From Pseudomonas sp. RIT-PI-S (GTDB taxonomy: Bacteria; Pseudomonadota; Gammaproteobacteria; Pseudomonadales; Pseudomonadaceae), in assembly GCF_025642975.1 (NCBI RefSeq), contig NZ_JANZKJ010000001.1:558001-622000 (forward strand): 64,000 nucleotides of DNA. The letters are read 5' to 3'. Every line of letters begins with the position of its first letter. Within the stretch, counting starts at the first letter, position 1. Under the pieces are notes generated by a model. It had not been told where the DNA came from. It was given only the letters and a program-made list of their open reading frames with translations, and did no database searches. The position numbers and the translations under genes are program-made. Below, one piece after another: positions 3,772-59,587 of the stretch.

Positions 3772-4455
3772 TCAATCCATGTCCCTGCCTGCCGTGAGCC
3801 GATACCCGACGCCGCGGACCGTATGCAAGAGCGCCCTGGCGTAAGGTTTGTCGATCGCCTGGCGCAGCTGATGCACATGGCTGCGCAAGCTATCGCTGTC
3901 AGGAGAGTCTTCGCCCCAAAGCGCCTCTTCCAGTACCTCACGACGCAGTACGTGCGGGCTTTTTTTCATCAGGATCGCCAGTAGCTTCAAGCCCACCGGA
4001 TTCAGCTTAAGCAGCTGACCGGCACGGGTAACTTCGAGGGTATCCAGGTCATATTTCAGGTCCGCCACCTGCAAGGTGCGCCTGAAACCGCCCTGGGCAC
4101 GGCTGGTGATCGCATCGATCCGCGCGCTTAGTTCTGACAGGGCAAAGGGCTTGATCAGGTAGTCGTCGGCACCCTGGCGAAAGCCTTGTAGACGGTCCTC
4201 GAGCTGGTCGCGGGCCGTCAACATAACGATCGGCGTGTCACGCCTGGCGTCTTCACGCAGCCGCTTGCACAGGGTAAAGCCATCTATGCCCGGCAGCATC
4301 ACATCCAATACGATCAGGTCATAGTGCTCCGTGGCGGCGAGGTGCAAGCCGGTCAAGCCATCCTGGGCACAGTCGACGGTATAACCTTTCAAGCCGAGAT
4401 AGTCTGCTAAGTTGGCGAGAATATCCCGATTGTCTTCCACCACAAGAATGCGCAT
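3772..4455 (-). CDS. ColR-like OmpR/PhoB-family response regulator, without adjacent kinase
   Basis: A response regulator of 227 residues. The receiver domain has the acidic pair in VVEDNRD, the phospho-acceptor Asp51 in LIVLDVMLPG, Thr80 in IVMLTA and Lys102 in DDYLIKPF. The C-terminal winged helix runs from about 130 to 220 and ends in the typical SLRSHVHQLRQ...VRGVGYRL. Overall it closely resembles ColR of Pseudomonas, which with ColS controls outer-membrane and lipid A functions, but no sensor kinase gene lies next to it. It is therefore a paralogue that may depend on a remote kinase. It is divergent from the PAP2 and eptA genes, which share a 12-bp box upstream, so it is their likely regulator. 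Confidence 0.88.
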   Translation of the reverse strand: MRILVVEDNRDILANLADYLGLKGYTVDCAQDGLTGLHLAATEHYDLIVLDVMLPGIDGFTLCKRLREDARRDTPIVMLTARDQLEDRLQGFRQGADDYLIKPFALSELSARIDAITSRAQGGFRRTLQVADLKYDLDTLEVTRAGQLLKLNPVGLKLLAILMKKSPHVLRREVLEEALWGEDSPDSDSLRSHVHQLRQAIDKPYARALLHTVRGVGYRLTAGRDMD

Positions 4456-4532
4456 GGAGAGCCCCTTAATACGTTGAATCGCCGCAGCTTACGCATTGTT
4501 TTGCAGCCGGGCTAGGGCAAATCGCAATCGCA

Positions 4533-4544
4533 AATTTTTCACAA
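4533..4544 (+). promoter_or_regulatory. Candidate ColR-type box upstream of the PAP2 gene
   Basis: The 12-mer AATTTTTCACAA lies 79 bases before the PAP2 start codon. Exactly the same 12-mer in the same orientation lies 69 bases before eptA (5401-5412). Its TTTTTCAC core resembles the ColR target element as I remember it. This is a repeat seen directly; the regulator assignment is inferred. Confidence 0.55.
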
Positions 4545-4623
4545 TCGCTTGACGTTCGCTCCACGGTGCGGTGGCTAAACTAGTCACGAATACTCTATCT
4601 TTTCTATTTTCTCAGGTTGCCAC

Positions 4624-5361
4624 ATGCCTATCCGTTACAGTCGGCCCTTGCATTTGCCTATGGCCTTGGGGCTGCCCGCACTTATAGTAATTGGCCTGCT
4701 ACTGCTTGAGTTCACAAACTTCGATATGTGGCTGGCGAGGCTGAGCTACGACCGCCATGTCGGCCGTTTTCTAGGGCACCATAGTTATTTTCTAGAGAAC
4801 GTGCTGCACGACGGTGCAAAGCAAATCGTCATAGGCATTGCATTACTGTCTTTGCTTGCATTCGGTTTGTCTTTTTTTAATCGTCGGCTTTCAGGTTGGC
4901 GCAGGGAGTTAGGTTGCATCGCGCTGTCCATGGCGCTTTCAACAAGTTTCGTGACCCCGCTCAAAGCCGTAACGGCAGTACAGTGCCCGTGGAGTTTGAC
5001 GCAGTTTGGGGGCAGCGAGACTTACAGCAAGGTTTTCGACAGCCGCCCGGACACCAGCCATCCAGGCCGGTGCTGGCCTGGTGGCCATGCGGCTACGGGC
5101 TTCACCCTATTTGCGCTGTATTTCGCGCTAAGGGACCGGCGCCCGCGCCTGGCGCGTTACGCCTTCGGCCTGGCGCTGGGTTTAGGATTATTGTTTTCCG
5201 TGGGCAGAATGCTTCAGGGCGCACACTTTTTCTCACACAACGTATGGACGGCGGTGTTCTGCTGGTGGATATGTTTGGGTACTTACTACCTAGTGTTGCG
5301 TAACCGCTCGGCTTATAAGCTTGAAGACTGCCCGGCGCCACGAAAAGAAATATTGCGATAG
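4624..5361 (+). CDS. PAP2-superfamily membrane phosphatase (LpxE/PgpB type)
   Basis: A multi-spanning membrane protein of 245 residues with hydrophobic segments near 15-33, 65-88, 100-118, 160-178, 185-200 and 205-225. It carries the acid-phosphatase signatures of the PAP2 family: a central CWPGGHAATGF (the PSGH-type block) and a later GRMLQGAHFFSHNVW block (the SRxxxxxHxxxD-type block, with His). Enzymes of this type remove phosphate from lipid A, undecaprenyl diphosphate or phosphatidylglycerol phosphate at the periplasmic face. Its position immediately before eptA suggests a lipid A 1- or 4'-phosphatase that works with phosphoethanolamine addition. The substrate cannot be decided from sequence. 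It is divergent from the ColR-like regulator. Confidence 0.88.
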   Translation: MPIRYSRPLHLPMALGLPALIVIGLLLLEFTNFDMWLARLSYDRHVGRFLGHHSYFLENVLHDGAKQIVIGIALLSLLAFGLSFFNRRLSGWRRELGCIALSMALSTSFVTPLKAVTAVQCPWSLTQFGGSETYSKVFDSRPDTSHPGRCWPGGHAATGFTLFALYFALRDRRPRLARYAFGLALGLGLLFSVGRMLQGAHFFSHNVWTAVFCWWICLGTYYLVLRNRSAYKLEDCPAPRKEILR

Positions 5362-9554: not shown

Positions 9555-10691
9555 GTGGCCATAGCGATAGAGTGGATCCGTGACGACCAGGCGCTGGCGG
9601 CGCATTGTGCTGTTTGGCAGGCACTGCCTTTCATTGCGCTGGATACCGAATTCGTAAGAGTGGATACCTTCTTCCCCCGAGTGGGGCTGTTGCAGGTAAG
9701 TGACGGTCACGTCGCCTTTCTGATCGACCCGCTATGCATTACCGCCTGGGAACCGTTGGCCGCCCTGCTGGCCGCCCCAGGCGTGGTCAAGGTATTGCAC
9801 GCCTGTAGCGAAGACCTGGAGGTGCTCGCCCGCCTGACCGGGCAACTGCCCGCGCCGCTGTTCGATACCCAGCTTGCTGCCGCTTACCTGGGGCTGGGCT
9901 TTTCCATGGGCTATTCGCGGCTGGTACAAGAGGTTCTGGGGCTGGAGTTACCCAAGGGGGAAACGCGTTCCGACTGGCTGCAACGGCCGCTCTCGGAGCA
10001 GCAGGTCAGCTATGCGGCCGAGGACGCCTTGCACCTTGCCGAGCTGTACCAGGCCTTGCGCCCGCGCTTGAGCGAGGAGCGCTTTGCGTGGGTTGTGGAA
10101 GACGGTCATGAGCTTACCTCCCAGTGGGATCGCGAAGTGGACCCGCATGAGCTGTACCGCGAAGCGCGGCTGGGCTGGAAGCTTTCTCCTACGCAGTTGG
10201 CGGTGCTGCGCGAGCTGTACGCCTGGCGCGAAACGCAAGCGCGCCTGCGTGACGTACCCCGCAACCGGGTGATCAAGGAGCAGACCCTTTGGCCACTGGC
10301 ACGCTTCCAGCCCAATAACCTGACGGCCCTGGCGAAGGTCGATGAAATGCATCCGCGGACCATCCGCCAGGATGGAGAAACCTTGCTGGAGCTGATCCAG
10401 CAGGCAGCGCGAACGCCGCCAGCGGACCTGCCCGCGCCACTGCCCGAGCCGCTGCCAATGGAGGCCTCCGGGCTGCTCAAGCAGCTGCGTGCCGTAGGCC
10501 AGGCCGAGGCCGAGCGCCTGGGTATCGCGCCCGAACTGGCACTGCGCAAGAAGACCCTCGAAGCCCTGTTGCGCAGCGGCTACCCCAGCGGCCCTTACAG
10601 CCTTCCTGATTCCCTGCGTGGCTGGCGCCGCGAGCGGCTGGGCCAGGCGTTGCTCGATAGCCTGGCGGCAGCCGGAGACCAACATCCATGA
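9555..10691 (+). CDS. rnd: Ribonuclease D
   Basis: A protein of 378 residues. The N-terminal DEDD exonuclease domain shows the metal-binding motifs: [20 protein letters not shown] (Exo I), the central [10 protein letters not shown] (Exo II) and [13 protein letters not shown] (Exo III, Tyr-type). One or two HRDC domains follow (about 210-370). RNase D trims the 3' ends of tRNA and other stable RNAs. The start is GTG at 9555, preceded by AAGGAGAG; an upstream ATG at 9510 has no such site. It overlaps ycgL by four bases (ATGA), giving a coupled pair. Confidence 0.95.
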
Positions 10692-10981
10692 AACGCATCT
10701 GCTCCATCTACCGTAGCCCGAAGAAAAACGAGATGTACCTGTACGTGCTCAAAAGCGATGCGCTGGCCCGGGTTCCAGAAGCCTTGCTCGCGGCCTTCGG
10801 CGCACCGCGCCATGCCTTCGACCTGGTGCTCAGCCCCGAGCGCCAGCTCGCCCGGGAGGACATCCACAAGGTGTTGGAAAATCTCGACGGCCAGGGTTAC
10901 CACCTGCAGATGCCGCCGCCGGAACCGGAGTACATCGAGCATCTTCCCGAGGAGTTGTTGCGGCGCAACGACCCGGTCTAA
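10688..10981 (+). CDS. YcgL-family protein
   Basis: A protein of 97 residues that begins [20 protein letters not shown], the hallmark of the YcgL (UPF0745) family. It is small, cytoplasmic and of unknown biochemical function. The ATG overlaps the rnd stop, so it is translated from the same message. The rnd-ycgL pairing, with ycgN nearby, is a conserved gammaproteobacterial neighbourhood. Confidence 0.93.
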
Positions 10982-17401: not shown

Positions 17402-17935
17402 ATGACCGAGAACGACTATTACATTGCCTGGGGCCTCTATGCCTTCGCCGCCCTAGGCTGCCTGCTGGTGTGGTTTCGCCTTACCCGATGGCTGTGGCGC
17501 TGGCTGCGCGAACCGCTGCGGGTAGTGGCGGCGGTGGCGCTGTTCACCCCGACCGTAGTAGACCCTGCCAAGGAGCAGTTCGCGCCTGCCATCGCTATCA
17601 CCGCGCTGGATCTGATCTTCAAGGTGGCCGCCAACGCCTGGCGCGCCGTGCCAGACCTGGCCATGTACAGCGTGATCGCGCTGGCCGTGTATGCCGTGTT
17701 CGCGCTGATCCGCTGGCCACTGGAGCGCAGCGCCCGCGCCCGCCGAGCCGAGCAGCAGGCCGACGCCGAGCGCCGGGCGAAGCTGGCCGAAGCCGAGGCG
17801 AACGAGCTCTTCGCGCCCGCGCCGCTTAACCCCCCGTCCGCGCCTGGCCGCTACGACGCCGAGCCGCGCCCACAGGCCGGTAGCCCACGACGCCCCACCG
17901 ACGGCGGCTCGATGCGGGTCGAGCCGCGGGTCTAA
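17402..17935 (+). CDS. Inner-membrane protein of unknown function
   Basis: A protein of 177 residues. Three hydrophobic helices are visible: about 8-24 (YIAWGLYAFAALGCLLVWF), 40-75 in part, and 85-105 (VIALAVYAVFALIRW). A charged cytoplasmic tail follows (RSARARRAEQQADAERRAKL) and a Pro-rich, disordered end. Relatives in Pseudomonas are sometimes labelled MFS transporter, but this protein is far too short for one. I assign no function. It lies 32 bases before the amidotransferase gene on the same strand. Confidence 0.8.
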   Translation: MTENDYYIAWGLYAFAALGCLLVWFRLTRWLWRWLREPLRVVAAVALFTPTVVDPAKEQFAPAIAITALDLIFKVAANAWRAVPDLAMYSVIALAVYAVFALIRWPLERSARARRAEQQADAERRAKLAEAEANELFAPAPLNPPSAPGRYDAEPRPQAGSPRRPTDGGSMRVEPRV

Positions 17936-23784: not shown

Positions 23785-24723
23785 ATGACCCTCTCGTTCA
23801 CCGCCAAGGCCCTTGTGCTGTTCATGTTCATAGGCAGTACGCTCTATGTGCATTTGCGCGGCAAGGCGCGGCTGCCGGTGCTGCGCCAGTTCGTTAACCA
23901 CTCGGCGCTGTTCGCCCCCTACAACGCCCTGATGTACTTGTTTTCCAGCGTGCCGTCACGGCCCTACCTGGACCGCAGCCGCTTTCCCGAACTGGACGTA
24001 TTGCGCGACAACTGGAGCGTGATTCGCGAAGAGGCGATGCGCCTGTTCGACGAGGGCTACATCCGCGCCGCCGAGAAAAACAACGACGCTGGCTTCGGGT
24101 CGTTCTTCAAAAAGGGCTGGAAGCGCTTTTACCTGAAGTGGTACGACAAACCGCTGCCTTCGGCGATGGCTCTGTGCCCACGCACGGTGGAGCTGGTCAG
24201 CGCCATCCCTAACGTCAAGGGTGCGATGTTCGCGTTGCTGCCCGGTGGCAGCCACCTCAACCCGCATCGCGACCCCTTTGCCGGTTCTTTGCGCTATCAC
24301 CTGGGGCTGGCCACACCCAACTCCGACGCCTGCCGCATTTATGTGGATGGCCAGCCCTACGCCTGGCGTGACGGGCAGGACGTGATGTTCGACGAAACCT
24401 ACGTGCACTGGGTGAAGAACGAAACCGAGCAAACCCGGGTCATCCTCTTCTGCGACATCGAGCGGCCGTTGTCGAACCGCCTGATGACCCGCATCAACCG
24501 CAGCGTCAGCGCCTTCCTTGGCCGTGCCACCGCGCCACAGAACCTGGACGATGAGCGCGTAGGCGGGATCAACCAGGCGTATGCCTGGAGCAAACGCTTC
24601 AGCGACGGCACCAGCGGCCGAGTGAAGCAATTCAAGCGCAAGCATCCAAAAGCCTATCGCGTGCTGCGGCCTGTGCTGGCCGTCGTGGTGCTTACTGCCC
24701 TGGGTTACTGGCTGTTCGGATGA
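23785..24723 (+). CDS. lpxO: Lipid A hydroxylase LpxO (aspartyl/asparaginyl beta-hydroxylase family)
   Basis: A protein of 312 residues with a membrane helix at each end (about 5-22, and 292-310 LAVVVLTALGYWLFG) and a cytoplasmic Fe(II)/2-oxoglutarate dioxygenase domain between. The iron ligands are in GSHLNPHRDPFAGSLRYHLGL and in DETYVHWVKNETEQTRVIL, where the Arg binds 2-oxoglutarate. LpxO adds a 2-hydroxyl to a secondary acyl chain of lipid A. Together with PAP2, EptA and LpxL in this window it points to a well-equipped lipid A modification set. An AGGAG site precedes the ATG. Confidence 0.92.
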   Translation: MTLSFTAKALVLFMFIGSTLYVHLRGKARLPVLRQFVNHSALFAPYNALMYLFSSVPSRPYLDRSRFPELDVLRDNWSVIREEAMRLFDEGYIRAAEKNNDAGFGSFFKKGWKRFYLKWYDKPLPSAMALCPRTVELVSAIPNVKGAMFALLPGGSHLNPHRDPFAGSLRYHLGLATPNSDACRIYVDGQPYAWRDGQDVMFDETYVHWVKNETEQTRVILFCDIERPLSNRLMTRINRSVSAFLGRATAPQNLDDERVGGINQAYAWSKRFSDGTSGRVKQFKRKHPKAYRVLRPVLAVVVLTALGYWLFG

Positions 24724-52257: not shown

Positions 52258-54426
52258 TTACAGCGTTTTCGCCGCCGGCCCGCCATGCACCACCTGCACG
52301 CTCAGCCGCGGCGTGGCCAGGTCTAGCCCGGCTTCGTCGAGGGTGCGTTTGAGCAGCAAGTTGAAGGCACGGGAAATTTCCCATTGCTTGAGCGGTGCGG
52401 TCTTGAAGCGCGCGCGCAACACGGCGGAGCCGGATTCGAAGCTTTCTACCCCCTGGAACTCCAGGGGCGACCAGATCTCCCGGCGCAGCAACGGGTCGCT
52501 GTGCATCTTCTGGCCGACCTCGCGGATCAGCTTGATGGCGTCGTCGATCCCCACCGCATGGGGGATCGCCACGCGGAAAATGGCGTAGCCGAATTCCCGC
52601 GAATAGTTCTTGATGCTTTTGATCTCGCTGAAAGGAATGGTATGTACGATACCGTCGATGTCACGCAGGCGTACGGTGCGGATGGTCAGGCCCTCGACCG
52701 TGCCCAGGTGGCCGCCTACGTCCACGTAGTCGTCGATGGCCAGGGAATCCTCGACGATGATGAACAGGCCGGTGATCAGGTCCGCTACCAAGGACTGCGC
52801 GCCAAAGCCGATGGCTAGACCGATCACACCCGCACCGGCCAGCAGCGGCGTGACGTTCACGCCCATGTTCGCCAAGGCGACGATGCCGGCGATCACGAAA
52901 ATGGTCACGAACAGCACGTTGCGGATCAGCGGCATCATGGTTTGCGCGCGCGCGTTGGCGATACCTTTGCGCGAGCGGGCCAGGCCGTGGTGGATCGCGG
53001 TGTCGGCGAGAATCCATACCAGCCAGGCCAGCATCAGCGTGCCAGTGAGGCCGAACAGCCGCAGGCTGAAGTCATGGCCGCTGCCCTCGGTAAAGCGAAT
53101 GAAGGACAGCCCCCACACCCGTAGGCCCAATTCCAGGAACACCCCCCAGACCGCGATGTGCGCCAAGGTGTAGGCAAAGCTTTTCAGCCGTTCGGCGTAG
53201 GCCTCTTGGCGCCGGGCCCGTTTGCTCGGCTTCTGCGCATGCCGGCTGACCAGGCCATTGATCACCATGCATACCACCAGCAGCACGGTGCACAGCAGGG
53301 ACTGGCGCAACGCGGTGCTGGTGTCGCCGGCGGAAATAAAGGTTGCCACCAGCGACACCCCCACCAGCACCAGCGCTGGCAGGTACCAATAGGTCCCCAG
53401 CACTTCCAGGGTGTCAGTCATCGCCCGCCGATGCAGGCGCCGCGCCAAGGGCTGGTTGCAGATCAAGTGCGCCACCGGCCGGCGGAAGCGCAGGATGAAC
53501 AACCCGCTGAACAGCGCTGCCAGCACGTTGGCCAGGGCCGCTGCACTATGGGCCAGGTGCACCCCGAGGCCCGCCACCAGGCGCGGATCACTGAGCGCTT
53601 CGCCGAACGCGGCAAAGCTGCCGATCAGCCACATTGGCCGGAAAGCGCGTCGGCGCAGGATGTACAGCGCACGGTGGCGGTGCGGGCCGTCGAGTAGCGA
53701 AAACGCAATCACGCAGATGGCGGCGAAGCAGGTGCCCACTACCAGGGCATAGGCCACCACCAGGGCAAGGTCCTTGCCAAGCGAGGAGGGCACTGCGTAA
53801 CCGATGCCCAGGGTCAGCGCCAGGGCCACCAACCAGGGGCCCAGCTTGCGCAAGGCGAAGCGCAGCAGGTCCCAGGTGCGTGGATGTTGCGGCAGTTCTT
53901 CGGGGAGGCCGAAACGCTCGCGCATGCGCTGGCTCAGCCAGATCAGCGCATAGGCCAGCAGTGCCCAGGCCAGGATGGTGAGCACGAAGATCATCAATAC
54001 CGAGCTCTGGTCGGCGAAGTTGCTCGACCGGTCGAGCAGCTCGTCCCGCGCTAGCGCCAGCTCATCGACCCACTGGCTTAGTGGGCTGTTCTCACCGGCG
54101 AACTGCCGCTCCAAGGTGCGCACCGTCCCGCCGAGCAGCCCCACCACCCCTTCTCCCTGAGTGGGGTTGGCCTTGCGGCTGGCGTCGCGCAGTTGTTTGA
54201 GCTCGGTGAGCAGCCGTGCGCGCTGCTCGTCGTTCTCCAGCGTGCCGATCACGTGATCCAGCGACTGGTTCAGGTTCTCGGCCGGCGCCTCGCTCTTCGC
54301 CGGGTTGCCCAGCAGGCTGGGCAACCCGCTTGCCTGGGCCGGCGCGGAAAAGGCCAACGCGCAGCACAATAGCCAGCACAGGGCCAGCGCCCAATGCCGG
54401 GCCGGCCCTGATACCCGCGCGATCAC
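52258..54426 (-). CDS. MscS-family mechanosensitive channel, large form
   Basis: A protein of 722 residues with a signal peptide (cleavage near PAQAS), a periplasmic helical domain (about 30-130) and about ten membrane helices. The MscS core comes near residues 480-570: [67 protein letters not shown] is the pore helix and beta domain, followed by the C-terminal vestibule. The large form resembles YbiO/YjeP-type channels that release osmolytes on hypo-osmotic shock. The start is GTG at 54426, overlapping the apeB stop (GTGA), so the two are translationally coupled. Confidence 0.9.
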
Positions 54427-55712
54427 GGCAAGGCTCGGGCGGCGTAGAAGGCGCCCAGCACCTTGACCAAGTGGGCGAGGTCGTGGCTGCCGGCAAGCTC
54501 ACGAATGGAGTGCATGGCGAAGGTCGGTACGCCGATGTCTACCGTGCGCACCCCCAGGCGGCTGGCAGTGATGGGCCCGATGGTGGAGCCGCAGCCCATG
54601 TCGCTGCGCACCACGAAGCTCTGCACCGGCACTTCCTCGGCCAGGCACAGGTGGCGGAAGAACCCGCCGGTTTCGCTGTTGGTTGCGTAGCGCTGGTTGC
54701 TGTTGACCTTGATCACTGGCCCGGCGTTGAGCTTGGGGCCATGGTTGCCATCGTGCTTGTCCGCATAGTTGGGGTGCACGCCGTGAGCGTTGTCGGCCGA
54801 AATCAGCAGCGAACGCTGGATCGCCCGCACGTAGTCGTCGCCCTCGGGCAGCAGCCGTTGCAGGGTCTGTTCCAGCAGCGGGCCATCGGCACCGCAGGCC
54901 GAGCTCGAGCCCACTTCTTCGTGGTCGGTGCATACCAGCACGCAGGTTTCATCCCCTTCGGCGCGCAGCAGCGCTTGCAGCCCGGCAAAGCAGGACAACA
55001 GGTTGTCCAGGCGGGCGCCGGCGATGAAGTCGCCATTAAGGCCAATCACCGCGGCAGGCTGGGTGTCGTAGAAACTCAGCTCGTAATCGAGCACCACGTC
55101 GGCATTCACGCCGTGCTCCTTGGCCAACTGTTCGGTGAGCAGGGCGCGGAAGTCAAAGCGCTCGCTGCCGTCCACCTGGGCAAGAATCGGCGGCAGTTCG
55201 TTCTGGGCGTTGATCGCCCAGCCTTCATTCGCGGCGCGGTTAAGGTGAATCGCCAGGTTCGGAATGATCGCGATCGGCACCTGGAAATCCACCAGTTGGC
55301 TGGCCACGCGGCCATCCTGGCGAAAGGTCACGCGGCCAGCGATCGACAGGTCGCGGTCGAACCACGGCGCCAACAAGGCCCCGCCGTACACTTCCACGCC
55401 CAGTTGCAGAAAGCCCTGGCGTTGCAGCTCGGGCTGCGGCTTGACCCGCAGGCAGGGGCTGTCGGTATGCGCGCCAACCAGGCGCAGGCCCTGGGTGACC
55501 GGGGATTCCTTACCCAGCCGGATAGCGATCAGCGAGGAGTCGTTACGGGTCAGGTAATAGCGGCCACCGGGGGTGGTGCTCCAGCGCTCGCGTTCGTCCA
55601 GGCGTTGATAACCCGCGGCTTCGAGGCGCTGAACCAGGCTGGCGGTGGCATGGAAGGGTGTTGGCGAGGCCTTGAGGAAATCAATCAGGCCCAGGTTGAG
55701 GGTGTCACGCAT
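54423..55712 (-). CDS. apeB: M18-family aspartyl aminopeptidase
   Basis: A protein of 429 residues. M18 metal-binding blocks are visible: [15 protein letters not shown] (His, Asp), [21 protein letters not shown] (catalytic Glu), [19 protein letters not shown] and a C-terminal His in [19 protein letters not shown]. The enzyme removes acidic residues from peptide N-termini in the cytoplasm as a dodecameric zinc enzyme. Length and motifs are complete. Upstream lies the REP array. Confidence 0.94.
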
Positions 55713-55800
55713 CGGGGTACTCCAGGCAGCAATGCCGCGAGTCTAGCGCACATGCGGGAAACGACGAAAATTGTTGCGTGGCGGGGCCGCCCATGAAGAG

Positions 55801-56776
55801 CGGCGTCTGGGTTCGCAGGCTGGCGCCAGCTCCCACAATGTAGAGCCCCTGTGGGACCGGGCGAAGCCCGGGAACGGTCGGGCGTTCGGGTTCGCAGGCT
55901 GGCCCCAGCTCCCACAATGTAGGGGCCCTGTAGGACCGGGCGAAGCCCGGGAACGATCGGCGTTTGGGTTCGCAGGCTGGCGCCAGCTCCACAATGTAGG
56001 GGCCTTGTGGGGCCGGGCGAAGCCCGGGAACGGTCTGGCGTCTGGGTTCGCAGGCTGCCGCCAGCTCCCACAATGTGGGTCCCTGTGGGACCGGGCGAAG
56101 CCCGGGAACGGTCTGGCGTCTGGGTTCGCAGGCTGGCGCCAGCTCCCACAATGTAGAGACCCTGTAGGACCGGGCGAAGCCCGGGAACGGTCTGTGTCTG
56201 GGTTCGCAGGCTGGCGCCGGCTCTCACAATGCCGAGACCCTGTGGGACCGGGCGAAGCCCGGGAACGGTCTGGCGTCTGGGTTCGCAGGCTAGCGCCAGC
56301 TCCCACAATGTGGGGATCCTTTGGGACCGGGCGAAGCCCGGGAACGGTCTGGCGTTTGGGCTCGCAGGCTGCCGCCAGCCCACAACGTAGGGGTCTTGTG
56401 GGACCGGGCGAAGCCCGGGAACGGTCGGCGTCCGGGATCGCAGGCTGGCGCCAGCTCCCACAATGTAGGGACCCTGTGGGACCGGGCGAAGCCCAGGAAT
56501 GGTCGGCGTCTGGGTTCGCAGGCTGGCGCCAGCTCTCACAATGCCGAGACCCTGTGGGACCGGGCGAAGCCCAGGAATGGTCGGCGTCTGGGTTCGCAGG
56601 CTGGCGCCAGCTCTCACAATGCCGAGACCCTGTGGGACCGGGCGAAGCCCGGGAACGGTCTGGCGTTTGGGTTCGCAGGCTGCCGCCAGCTCCCACAATG
56701 TAGGAGCCCTGTGGGACCGGGCGAAGCCCGGGAACGATCGGCGTTCGGGTTCGCAGGCTGGCGCCAGCCCACAACG
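55801..56776. repeat. Tandem array of about twelve 78-bp REP pairs
   Basis: The core CCGGGCGAAGCCC occurs at 55857, 55936, 56013, 56091, 56170, 56248, 56327, 56404, 56482, 56560, 56638 and 56717 (steps of 77-79 bases). Each unit has two facing REP halves of the form GTGGGA-stem-AAC: a CCGGGC-GAA-GCCCGG stem and, about 15 bases on, the reverse of GCTGGCGCCAGC. The GTGGGA ends and TCCCAC ends pair, so a whole unit is an imperfect palindrome. Units differ by point changes, except that 56482-56559 and 56560-56637 are identical. Two linker subtypes exist (ACAATGTAG and ACAATGCCGAGACC). The array lies between apeB and the RluA-like gene, and single copies are scattered elsewhere in the window. Confidence 0.95.
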
Positions 56777-56803: not shown

Positions 56804-57439
56804 CTAGAACGGCGCCGGGCACTCGAAACGCAAGCGCTCACCCGTGGCCGGGTGGCTGAAGGCGAGCATGCTGGCGTGCAAGCACAGCCGCGGGGAGGCC
56901 GCCAAGGCTGCTTCATGCGCGTAGAGGCGGTCGCCGAGCAGCGGGTGGCCGATGCTCAGCATGTGCACGCGCAGCTGGTGCGAGCGGCCGGTGACCGGGG
57001 TCAGTTCCACACGGCACCATTGCTCATGGCGCTCCAGCACACGCCAGAAGGTCAGCGCATGCTTGCCCAGTTCGTGGTCGACCACGTGGCGAGGCTTGGT
57101 GGGCGGGTCGTAGCGCAAGGGGAGGTCGATACTGCCGCTGTCCAAGGCAGGTTGGCCCCAGCACAGCGCGGTATAGGCTTTTTCCGTTTCGCGGTCATGA
57201 AATTGCCGCGACAGCTCCCGATGGCTGTCCGCATCCCGCGCCAGCAGGATGATCCCTGAAGTTTCCCAGTCCAGCCGGTGAACGATCAACGCCTCGGGAT
57301 AGCCGTTCTCCTGCAGGCGGGTGATCAGGCAATCCTTGTTATCGTCAGCGCGCCCAGGCACGGACAGCAGCAGGGTCGGTTTGTCGATCACCAGGAAGGT
57401 CGGGTCTTGGTGCAGGATGCGGATAGAGGAAAGGGGCAT
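56804..57439 (-). CDS. rluA: RluA-family pseudouridine synthase
   Basis: A protein of 211 residues. The catalytic motif is IVHRLDWETSGIILLARD (HRLD with the reactive Asp). The other family blocks are LVIDKPTLLLSVPGR, then KAYTALCWG, and GRSHQLRVHMLSIGHPLLGDRLY near the end. Without an S4 domain and at this length it matches RluA, which modifies 23S rRNA U746 and tRNA U32. The start at 57439 gives MPLSSIRILHQD; the ribosome binding site is weak, and an upstream in-frame ATG is possible. Confidence 0.9.
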   Translation of the reverse strand: MPLSSIRILHQDPTFLVIDKPTLLLSVPGRADDNKDCLITRLQENGYPEALIVHRLDWETSGIILLARDADSHRELSRQFHDRETEKAYTALCWGQPALDSGSIDLPLRYDPPTKPRHVVDHELGKHALTFWRVLERHEQWCRVELTPVTGRSHQLRVHMLSIGHPLLGDRLYAHEAALAASPRLCLHASMLAFSHPATGERLRFECPAPF

Positions 57440-57461
57440 CGCGGGGGTCTCGGGCAAACGC

Positions 57462-57487
57462 ATGCGGCGACCAGTAGGTCGCCGCAT
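57462..57487. terminator. Perfect 11-bp hairpin between minE and rluA
   Basis: ATGCGGCGACC, loop AGTA, GGTCGCCGCAT. It lies 18 bases beyond the minE stop on the minus strand and 22 bases before the rluA start. The strong stem suggests termination or RNA processing between the min operon and rluA, but only GTTT follows instead of a T-run. Confidence 0.5.
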
Positions 57488-57504: not shown

Positions 57505-57759
57505 TTAGCGGTCGGGCAGGGTGATATTCAATTCCAGGATCGAACAGCTGCCCTGGTTTTCCAGGGCGACATGTACGTCGTCGTTGTCGATGCTGACGTA
57601 CTTGCGGATGACTTCGACCAGCTCTTTCTGCAACGCAGGGAGGTAGTCTGGGGTGGTCCGCTGGCCGCGCTCGTGCGCCACGATGATTTGCAGACGCTCC
57701 TTCGCGACCGAGGCGGTGCTGGCCTTCTTGCGGTCACGAAAGAAGTCGAAAATATTCAT
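57505..57759 (-). CDS. minE: Cell division topological specificity factor MinE
   Basis: A protein of 84 residues. The N-terminal membrane-targeting and MinD-activating helix is [23 protein letters not shown], and the C-terminal dimer domain ends in NITLPD. It drives pole-to-pole oscillation by stimulating MinD ATPase. The start overlaps the minD stop by four bases (ATGA), so the proteins are made together. Confidence 0.96.
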
Positions 57760-58571
57760 TCACGACCTCCGAAAATGCGCTGGAGAAGGCTCTTCTTCTT
57801 CACGTCGAGGAAACGATGCTCGACCGTTTTGCCCAGCAGGCGATCGACCGCGTCGCTGTAGGCCTGGCCAGCGTCGCTTTGCTCGTCGAGGATCACTGGA
57901 ACGCCCTGGTTGGACGCCTTGAGCACCGCCTGGGATTCCGGGATCACGCCCAGCAGGCGGATGGCGAGGATCTCTTCCACGTCTTCCACGCCCAGCATCT
58001 CGCCCTTGCTTACACGCTCAGGGTTGTAGCGGGTCAGCAGCAGGTGTTCCTTGATCGGGTCCTCGCCTTTCTCGGCGCGGCGCGACTTGCTCGCCAATAG
58101 GCCGAGCATGCGGTCCGAGTCACGTACCGAGGACACTTCCGGGTTGGTCACCACGATGGCTTCGTCGGCGAAATACATCGCCAGGCTTGCGCCCTTCTCG
58201 ATCCCGGCCGGAGAGTCGCAGATAACGTATTCGAAGTCTTCCTTGAGCTCGGTGAGCACCTTCTCGACGCCCTCCTGGGTCAGGGCGTCTTTGTCACGGG
58301 TTTGGCTGGCGGCGAGCACGTAGAGGTTTTCCAGGCGCTTGTCTTTGATCAGCGCCTGCTTGAGGGTCGCTTCGTTGTTCACCACGTTGACGAAGTCATA
58401 CACCACGCGGCGCTCGCAGCCCATGATCAGGTCCAGGTTACGCAGGCCGACGTCGAAGTCGACGATAACGGTTTTGTGGCCGCGCAGTGCCAGGCCGGTG
58501 CCGATGGCTGCGCTGGTGGTGGTCTTGCCTACACCACCCTTGCCGGAAGTAACCACGAGAATCTTGGCCAA
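57756..58571 (-). CDS. minD: Septum-site determining ATPase MinD
   Basis: A protein of 271 residues. The deviant Walker A is [10 protein letters not shown] (about 10-18), followed by [15 protein letters not shown] and [14 protein letters not shown]. The C-terminal membrane-targeting helix is [14 protein letters not shown]-bound MinD dimerises on the membrane and recruits MinC to block Z-ring formation away from midcell. The gene is complete and in the standard C-D-E order. Confidence 0.97.
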
Positions 58572-58711
58572 GGTGTATCACCCCTAATGAAAAAAGGACT
58601 GTTGAGTCCTCGAAAACGTGAAGATGAAGATCGAATGCTTATTGAGGTGCGTAACGCCGGCGAAAACGCCGTTTGCCAAACAAGTTACGCATAAAATGGC
58701 GGCAGTATCCG

Positions 58712-59467
58712 TTAAAGGCGGGTGATGTTCAACACATCGGCAATGAGGCTGATCTGCACCGCTGTGCCCCAGAGCGGGTCGCGCCGAAGGTCTTCGGCGA
58801 CCTTGTACTGACCTGCGATGGACACGAGTTCGGCGCCCAGTTGCTGGCAGAAAATACGTGCCCGGGCATCCCCCTTGATGCCCGCCAGCGCCCGGCCACG
58901 CATGGGGCCGTAGACATGGATGTTGCCATCGGCGAGAAGTTCCGCCCCGGAACTCACCGACGACACCACCACCAAGTCACCGCCCTGGGCGTAGATCTGC
59001 TGGCCGCCCCGCACCGGTGTGGTGATCACCCGGGTAGGCTGCAACTGCGGTGCGGGCGGGGCTTCTACCACCGGTGGTGCGGGTTCGGCGGCTGGCTTGC
59101 GTTCTTCAACCGGTTCCACCGGCCGCTCCCGTGCGTTGGACGGCGGCAGCACGGGCAGGTCGATGGCGATGGCTGCAGCGATGTCTTCGATGCGCGCGGC
59201 ACGGATGGCCAGGGTGCGCAGGCCATGGTGGCGGCACACTCGCATCAGCCCGGGCAGGTCGATGGAACCTTCGCCTGCTGGCAGCTTGTCGAGTGCCAGC
59301 ACCAGGGGGGTGTTGCTGAAGAAGTTCGGCGCCTGGGCTACCTTGGCCGCCAACTGGCGGTCGAGGCCTTCGAGGTCGTTGCGAGCCAGCTCCAGCACGG
59401 TGATGGCGAGCATGCTGCCCTTCAGTTGGAATACGGCTTCCTGCTGCTGAGGTTCGGTTTGGCTCAT
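58712..59467 (-). CDS. minC: Septum-site determining protein MinC
   Basis: A protein of 251 residues. The N-terminal FtsZ-inhibiting domain (about 10-110: [20 protein letters not shown]) is followed by a Pro/Glu-rich linker (about 115-150). The C-terminal beta-helix domain that binds MinD follows ([45 protein letters not shown]). The start is ATG at 59467. A gap of 140 bases separates it from minD, which may hold a separate minDE promoter. It is divergent from lpxL. Confidence 0.95.
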
Positions 59468-59587
59468 GGTCGGCAAATGTCGCCTTGTCGCGAAAAGTGC
59501 CGTGACTTATAGCGAGAACGCTTGCCAGCCGCAAGCTGTGCGCAACCCATGTAGAATGCGCGGCTTTGCCTTAGCCCGGAAATCTTC

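Follow-up and report, generated by a model that had tools for sequence, protein, structure and literature searches.

A long tandem array of paired REP sequences between rluA and apeB in an array-rich Pseudomonas genome

The gap between rluA and apeB in this Pseudomonas genome holds a tandem array of REPIN-type REP pairs, which has very probably grown in place. The array is real, long and well formed, and it is a known kind of repeat array in an array-rich genome.

Architecture of the array

In the window (the whole 64 kb stretch of DNA that was analysed), TRF identified a tandem repeat at 55802-56768 with a period of 78, 12.4 copies and 89% matches. Besides this array, just two small tandem repeats were found, one of 24 bases (17657-17707) and one of 21 bases (23990-24029). 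The features of the region are as follows.

54423-55712, minus strand: apeB, M18 family aminopeptidase
55740-55747, minus strand: -10-like GCTAGACT upstream of apeB, between the array and apeB (by eye)
55802-56768, no strand: paired REPs in tandem, arranged as [B-A]x12-B with a period of 77-79 (TRF and core spacing)
55802-55850, no strand: left partial unit, B REP and outer spacer only
56470-56650, no strand: most recent visible duplication, in which 56470-56572 equals 56548-56650 (offset 78)
56632-56697, no strand: typical REPIN of A REP, inner spacer and inverted B REP, forming one hairpin (folding)
56711-56768, no strand: last pair, closest to the rluA stop, without the outer spacer seen after other units
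56804-57487, minus strand: pseudouridine synthase of the RluA family, the final gene ahead of the array
57505-59476, minus strand: minC, minD and minE, same-strand genes upstream of rluA

The core CCGGGCGAAGCCC occurs 12 times in the window, always inside the array and never on the other strand. Successive copies are spaced by 79, 77, 78, 79, 78, 79, 77, 78, 78, 78 and 79 bases, confirming the twelve cores at 77-79 bases described in an earlier, sequence-only reading of this DNA. That reading had also described REP pairs with GTGGGA/TCCCAC ends, sited between rluA and apeB. Both points stand, with the amendment that each pair consists of two unlike REPs. The A REP is GTGGGACCGGGCGAAGCCCGGGAAC, and the B REP is unlike A and inverted relative to it. 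The array contains 12 A REPs and 13 B REPs, 25 in total; with up to three mismatches allowed, 12 A and 12 B REPs were found, and the 13th B (unit 56321-56397) was recognised by eye. As in tandem REP or REPIN clusters, the pairs stand head to tail and the spacer is repeated too.

Judged from their spacing, minCDE and rluA probably form an operon with the array at its 3' end. On the other side, GCTAGACT is a putative apeB promoter element, and by eye many relatives have GCTAAACT or GTTAAACT at its position. An Rfam search of the array gave no RNA family up to E = 1, the scan for intrinsic terminators found one in the array versus 1.0 expected by chance, and a sigma-70 promoter scan of the array gave none beyond chance. 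The array is spanned by long open frames in either direction, as the mostly-78 period, a multiple of three, permits; other arrays of the genome (see below) have periods of 73, 79, 82, 83, 85 and 88, and a protein-coding repeat was therefore rejected.

REP pairs and folding

An A REP and an inverted B REP can pair into one hairpin, as folding indicated. The pair at 56632-56697 folded at -33.8 kcal/mol on the minus strand (z -2.95; 2 of 200 shuffles were as good) and more weakly on the plus strand (z -1.23), the stronger-folding strand being the one that would be transcribed from rluA. The whole 79-base unit was not distinct from shuffles (z -1.27; 19 of 200 as good), nor was the last pair together with the sequence up to the rluA stop any better than shuffles (z -0.54). 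The pairs share with REPINs two inverted REPs with GTGGGA-type ends outside, the folding of the doublet into one hairpin (for 56632-56697, though not for the last pair with the rluA tail) and a REP type that is dispersed elsewhere in the genome. The REPs of a pair are not of the same type, A differing from B; heterodimers are described for GTAG REPs in the excerpts of PMC3733652, and the unlike REPs weaken only the claim of a classical homodimer REPIN.

Compensatory changes that would support a selected hairpin were absent from the array (in 0 pairs had both partners changed; all 500 shuffles did as well). Another covariation run, also negative, had used the plus strand, which does not allow for the G-U pairing of the transcribed hairpin. 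The transcription block, gyrase binding and cruciforms proposed in the earlier reading, like any effect on rluA mRNA ends, are conjectural.

Duplication and variation among the units

Eleven units are full, and these comprise 10 distinct sequences. The latest duplication that can be seen is an exact match of 103 bp at offset 78, starting at 56470, and so more than one unit long; the identical neighbouring units and recent tandem duplication noticed earlier were thus upheld, the match exceeding a single unit. Four places from the identical pair, unit 56164-56241 carries part of their private sequence: it has the tail CTCTCACAATGCCGAGACCCT in common with both (57 bp exact, offset 390), and exchange therefore appears not to have been limited to neighbouring units. 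Identical neighbours combined with distant sharing point to exchange as well as duplication. Among the 11 units, neighbours were scarcely closer than distant ones (mean 8.3 versus 9.0 differences). Spacers were variable in 14 of 28 columns and REP arms in 11 of 51 (Fisher p = 0.012; 10 units, omitting unit 10, which is identical to unit 9, and the truncated unit 12).

Other REP arrays in the genome

A REP pattern gave 101 matches in the whole genome and 0 in the reversed control; with one unit as query, 82 matches were obtained, 13 in this array and many in other clusters. Arrays were sought in twenty stretches around clusters and in 800 kb of contig C1 taken unselected. Including the rluA-apeB array, these hold 21 REP arrays of about three or more units. 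The number is a minimum and not an unbiased count, as the 18 arrays outside C1 came from stretches picked by a unit or REP-pattern match; the unselected stretch, C1:1-800000, held 3. Five arrays have at least 10 units, four of them among the 20 beyond rluA-apeB, and the top copy number was 14.3. An array of this length had been thought unusual unless long arrays proved common in the genome; here they largely did, and the claim does not hold for this genome.

Array periods ranged from 73 to 223 bp, and both period and spacer are particular to each array. Of the three longest matches listed for each consensus unit of this genome, those exceeding the unit length were 66-78% identical, and those at least 85% identical were at most 47 bases long, about one REP. 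Each array seems to have been amplified at its own locus. Multi-unit periods, twofold or threefold, were present in arrays L113, L117, L119, L127 and L129, a pattern expected from unequal exchange. The stretch L119:7315-8057 contains 333-bp direct repeats, perhaps within a large repeat protein gene.

The orientation of the genes around the arrays was classified with a crude open-frame caller. The neighbours were readable for 20 arrays, of which 14 lay between convergent, 6 between codirectional and 0 between divergent genes, against 93, 451 and 92, respectively, of 636 neighbouring gene pairs in the background. Array L120 was dropped since its right neighbour was absent, and L131:9272-10053 was classed as convergent although a RAYT gene adjoins it; excluding it leaves 13 convergent and 6 codirectional of 19. 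In the related genome G171, 11 arrays gave 7 convergent, 4 codirectional and 0 divergent. REP-bearing gaps without arrays (n = 12) leaned as the arrays did (7, 5 and 0), and a preference of REPs for convergent and unidirectional gene pairs is given in the excerpts of PMC3733652.

The rluA-apeB gap in other Pseudomonas

We compared the gap in 76 named Pseudomonas loci; rluA did not lie beside apeB in 4 of 80 named and 4 of 29 further loci, which were dropped. Gap length was 36-302 bases in 64 loci, 632 bases in a single locus and 1.1-2.3 kb in the remaining 11; none of the 76 showed an array of this kind by TRF. The 11 long gaps (L064, L065, L067, L068, L081, L095, L099, L104, L105, L107 and L110) contain no tandem array and perhaps an extra gene. 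In L061, five REP tags lie in the gap of 632 bp, and by eye one stretch of it is nearly duplicated; this may be array growth at an early stage. Two or more REP tags were present in 31 of the 65 gaps of up to 700 bases (the 11 longer ones were excluded from this count), so a single REP pair is common at the rluA operon end; in most of the loci compared across the genus, the gap contains one REP pair at most. Among further loci, no array was found in 24 of 25 (gaps of 44-170 bases) nor in any of 20 more, 16 of which came from genomes with at least 6 matches to the triple-REP pattern described below; G156 is in both sets. When close strains were sought, none of 28 genomes besides the own one matched the unit at E 1e-6, and the sample contains no strain of the same species. 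One sampled genome, G199, has two apeB-like genes (G199:C1:741158-742425 and G199:C6:43221-44489).

An array does occur in the rluA-apeB gap of G171. With an apeB gene that is 85% identical at the DNA level, G171 is among the two closest relatives in the sample. Its array has a period of 97 bp and 5.6 copies, and the sequence is different. The second near relative, G156, has by eye one degenerate A-type pair in this gap. With 391 comparable gaps and 3 own and 6 G171 arrays, one shared array gap is expected by chance with p 0.045, and with p 0.058 and 0.079 under stricter gap lengths; as a signal of recurrence, the independent G171 array is suggestive but not strong. When the array-bearing gaps of the two species were compared, 10 of 11 had an array in one species only (one of the 11, G171 240144, is weak, with 2 copies and 2 tags), and by eye several of the empty counterpart gaps contain a single REP-like remnant. 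Recurrence of arrays at orthologous gaps as a general rule was rejected for most gaps, 1 of the 11 being shared.

RAYT transposases and arrays

An intact RAYT gene is located at C9:10135-10590 (151 aa; 151 bits for NF047646, cut-off 80). Across its two sides there are 11 A-type REP sites with at most two mismatches, and the sequence-only reading was right in suggesting a RAYT that matches GTGGGA-type ends. As expected of RAYT-associated REPs, the same REP type flanks the RAYT gene, in this case the A type. On both sides (L131:9272-10053 and 10591-10876) A-type REP pairs form tandem units of about 112 bp. The genome also has a broken RAYT copy on C49, in which two partial frames overlap; next to it stands another palindromic array, which is unrelated, of GCGTTGCGCC type and with periods of 112-306 (L127:3233-4191 and 4225-4754). 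B-type REPs with at most two mismatches were absent from the stretches around the intact (L131) and the broken (L127) RAYT. The NF047646 search of the genome gave three matches, two of which are these copies.

For a survey of the genus, 398 sampled genomes were searched for three same-sense REPs 55-85 bases apart. This triple-REP pattern matched in 95 genomes, against 7 of 398 for the reversed control, and some single matches are evidently due to chance. The present genome has 60 matches, second to one genome with 122, and in G278, another species, 8 overlapping matches in a row correspond to 10 units. The pattern is narrow and misses other REP types; G171 scores 0, with 7 REP arrays of at least 2.9 copies within 1.6 Mb.

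NF047646 matched in 369 of the 398 genomes, in 360 of them above the cut-off. Three genomes with 28, 20 and 16 triple-REP matches (G363, G071 and G374) have no RAYT match, G071 by its listed value and G363 and G374 by their absence from the 369 matching genomes, whereas seven (G012, G265, G280, G313, G187, G391 and G365) have 8-9 RAYT matches, up to 9 candidates per genome being scored, and 0 triple-REP matches. One genome, G218, is rich in both (36 and 7), and 20 array-rich genomes average 2.4 RAYT matches. Across the 398 genomes, RAYT number does not visibly track array number; there was no sign of RAYT dosage as a cause of arrays in this comparison, a rough one made at the extremes of the tables only. 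In view of array-rich genomes without RAYT and RAYT-rich genomes without the pattern, RAYT is therefore not the apparent motor of array growth, for which it may supply the seeds.

Origin of the array

For growth in place, we propose that a REP pair mobilised by RAYT provided the seed behind minCDE-rluA, at the 3' end of the operon and ahead of the promoter region of apeB. Two B REPs of the same sense at a distance of 78 bp (B-A-B) would then have allowed the copying machinery to slip or recombine, and units would have been multiplied, lost and mixed through unequal exchange. Once transcribed, the hairpins might to a small degree terminate or protect the rluA mRNA. They would have little other harmful effect, since apeB would be transcribed from a promoter of its own, downstream of the site; this is the weakest part of the proposal. 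Tandem REPIN clusters have been described in Pseudomonas (excerpts of PMC3116915 and PMC3733652) and five of six tandem REPINs were lost in an E. coli mutation-accumulation line (excerpts of PMC8049555), so that local gain and loss of REPINs are already known. For the present array, growth in place is argued indirectly, from its structure, its exact duplicate and the comparison with other loci. Under purely random growth, the independent array of G171 in this gap would not be expected (p 0.045-0.079).

The G171 array speaks for a rival reading, in which selection would keep the array as a functional element between minCDE-rluA and apeB. It would serve as a platform for gyrase, as an insulator of transcription or as a stabiliser of mRNA 3' ends, and being an array would outweigh the sequence. 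The position of arrays at gene ends in both genomes, the lower variability of REP arms than of spacers, and the BIME-2 elements of E. coli, which are gyrase cleavage sites (excerpts of PMC6379681), agree with such a role. REPs without arrays show the same leaning, however, and gene ends may just be harmless places; moreover, the same gap is without such an array in all 76 named and nearly all further loci, and the array shows no covariation. We consider selection for such a role unlikely on balance. Unlikely too, and to be held with a little more reserve, is the idea that in this Pseudomonas lineage certain operon ends, including the rluA-apeB gap, repeatedly grow REP arrays from unrelated seed pairs. 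Selection or a hot spot of mutation would then maintain the array state, with unit sequence and period changing from one species to the next. If true, it would be a bacterial counterpart of satellite DNA turnover.

That RAYT itself built the array, excising REP pairs again and again and re-inserting them side by side, is quite improbable. The intact RAYT is indeed flanked by A-type REPs in short tandem units and G218 is rich in arrays and RAYT matches, but the array-rich genomes without a RAYT match, the seven RAYT-rich genomes without a triple-REP match and the absence of B-type REPs around both RAYT copies argue against it, as do the array-private spacers held by the units, which local copying would give. 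An assembly artefact, with the unit number over- or under-built from reads, might be suspected in a 50-contig assembly with one identical unit pair; given the 10 distinct sequences, a longest exact tandem stretch of 181 bp and a comparable array in the one-contig genome G278, it is most improbable.

Comparison with known systems

Worth retaining are the size of the array, how many private arrays one genome contains, the link to RAYT number, which is weak, and the presence of a second array in this gap in G171. The private arrays form a set for telling growth by slippage or exchange from RAYT-driven growth, and if the recurrence in two species holds in more genomes, the long-standing question whether REP arrays have a function at all would become testable at a defined locus.

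The REP sequences of E. coli BIME-2 differ from those of the rluA-apeB array. Both have two REP types that alternate in intergenic DNA (excerpts of PMC6379681); gyrase cleavage is known for BIME-2 in E. coli from the same source. The GTAG-1 REP clusters of Di Nocera and others (2013, excerpts of PMC3733652) are alike in consisting of tandem singletons or dimers with variable-length flanking DNA, in containing heterodimers and in favouring convergent and unidirectional gene pairs, but the excerpts name no array at the rluA-apeB locus or of such size.

In the REPIN clusters of Pseudomonas fluorescens SBW25 (Bertels and Rainey 2011, excerpts of PMC3116915), the unit is likewise an inverted REP pair that recurs head to tail together with flanking sequence. 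That strain also has mixed GI-GIII arrays, which join two REP types, and REPs of the same type next to a RAYT gene. According to the excerpts, the largest REPIN cluster of SBW25 comprises four REPINs and a REP, and its largest mixed arrays comprise 12 REPs. The array described here exceeds the sizes given there, with 25 REPs in one array and five arrays of at least 10 units in a genome of 4.9 Mb.
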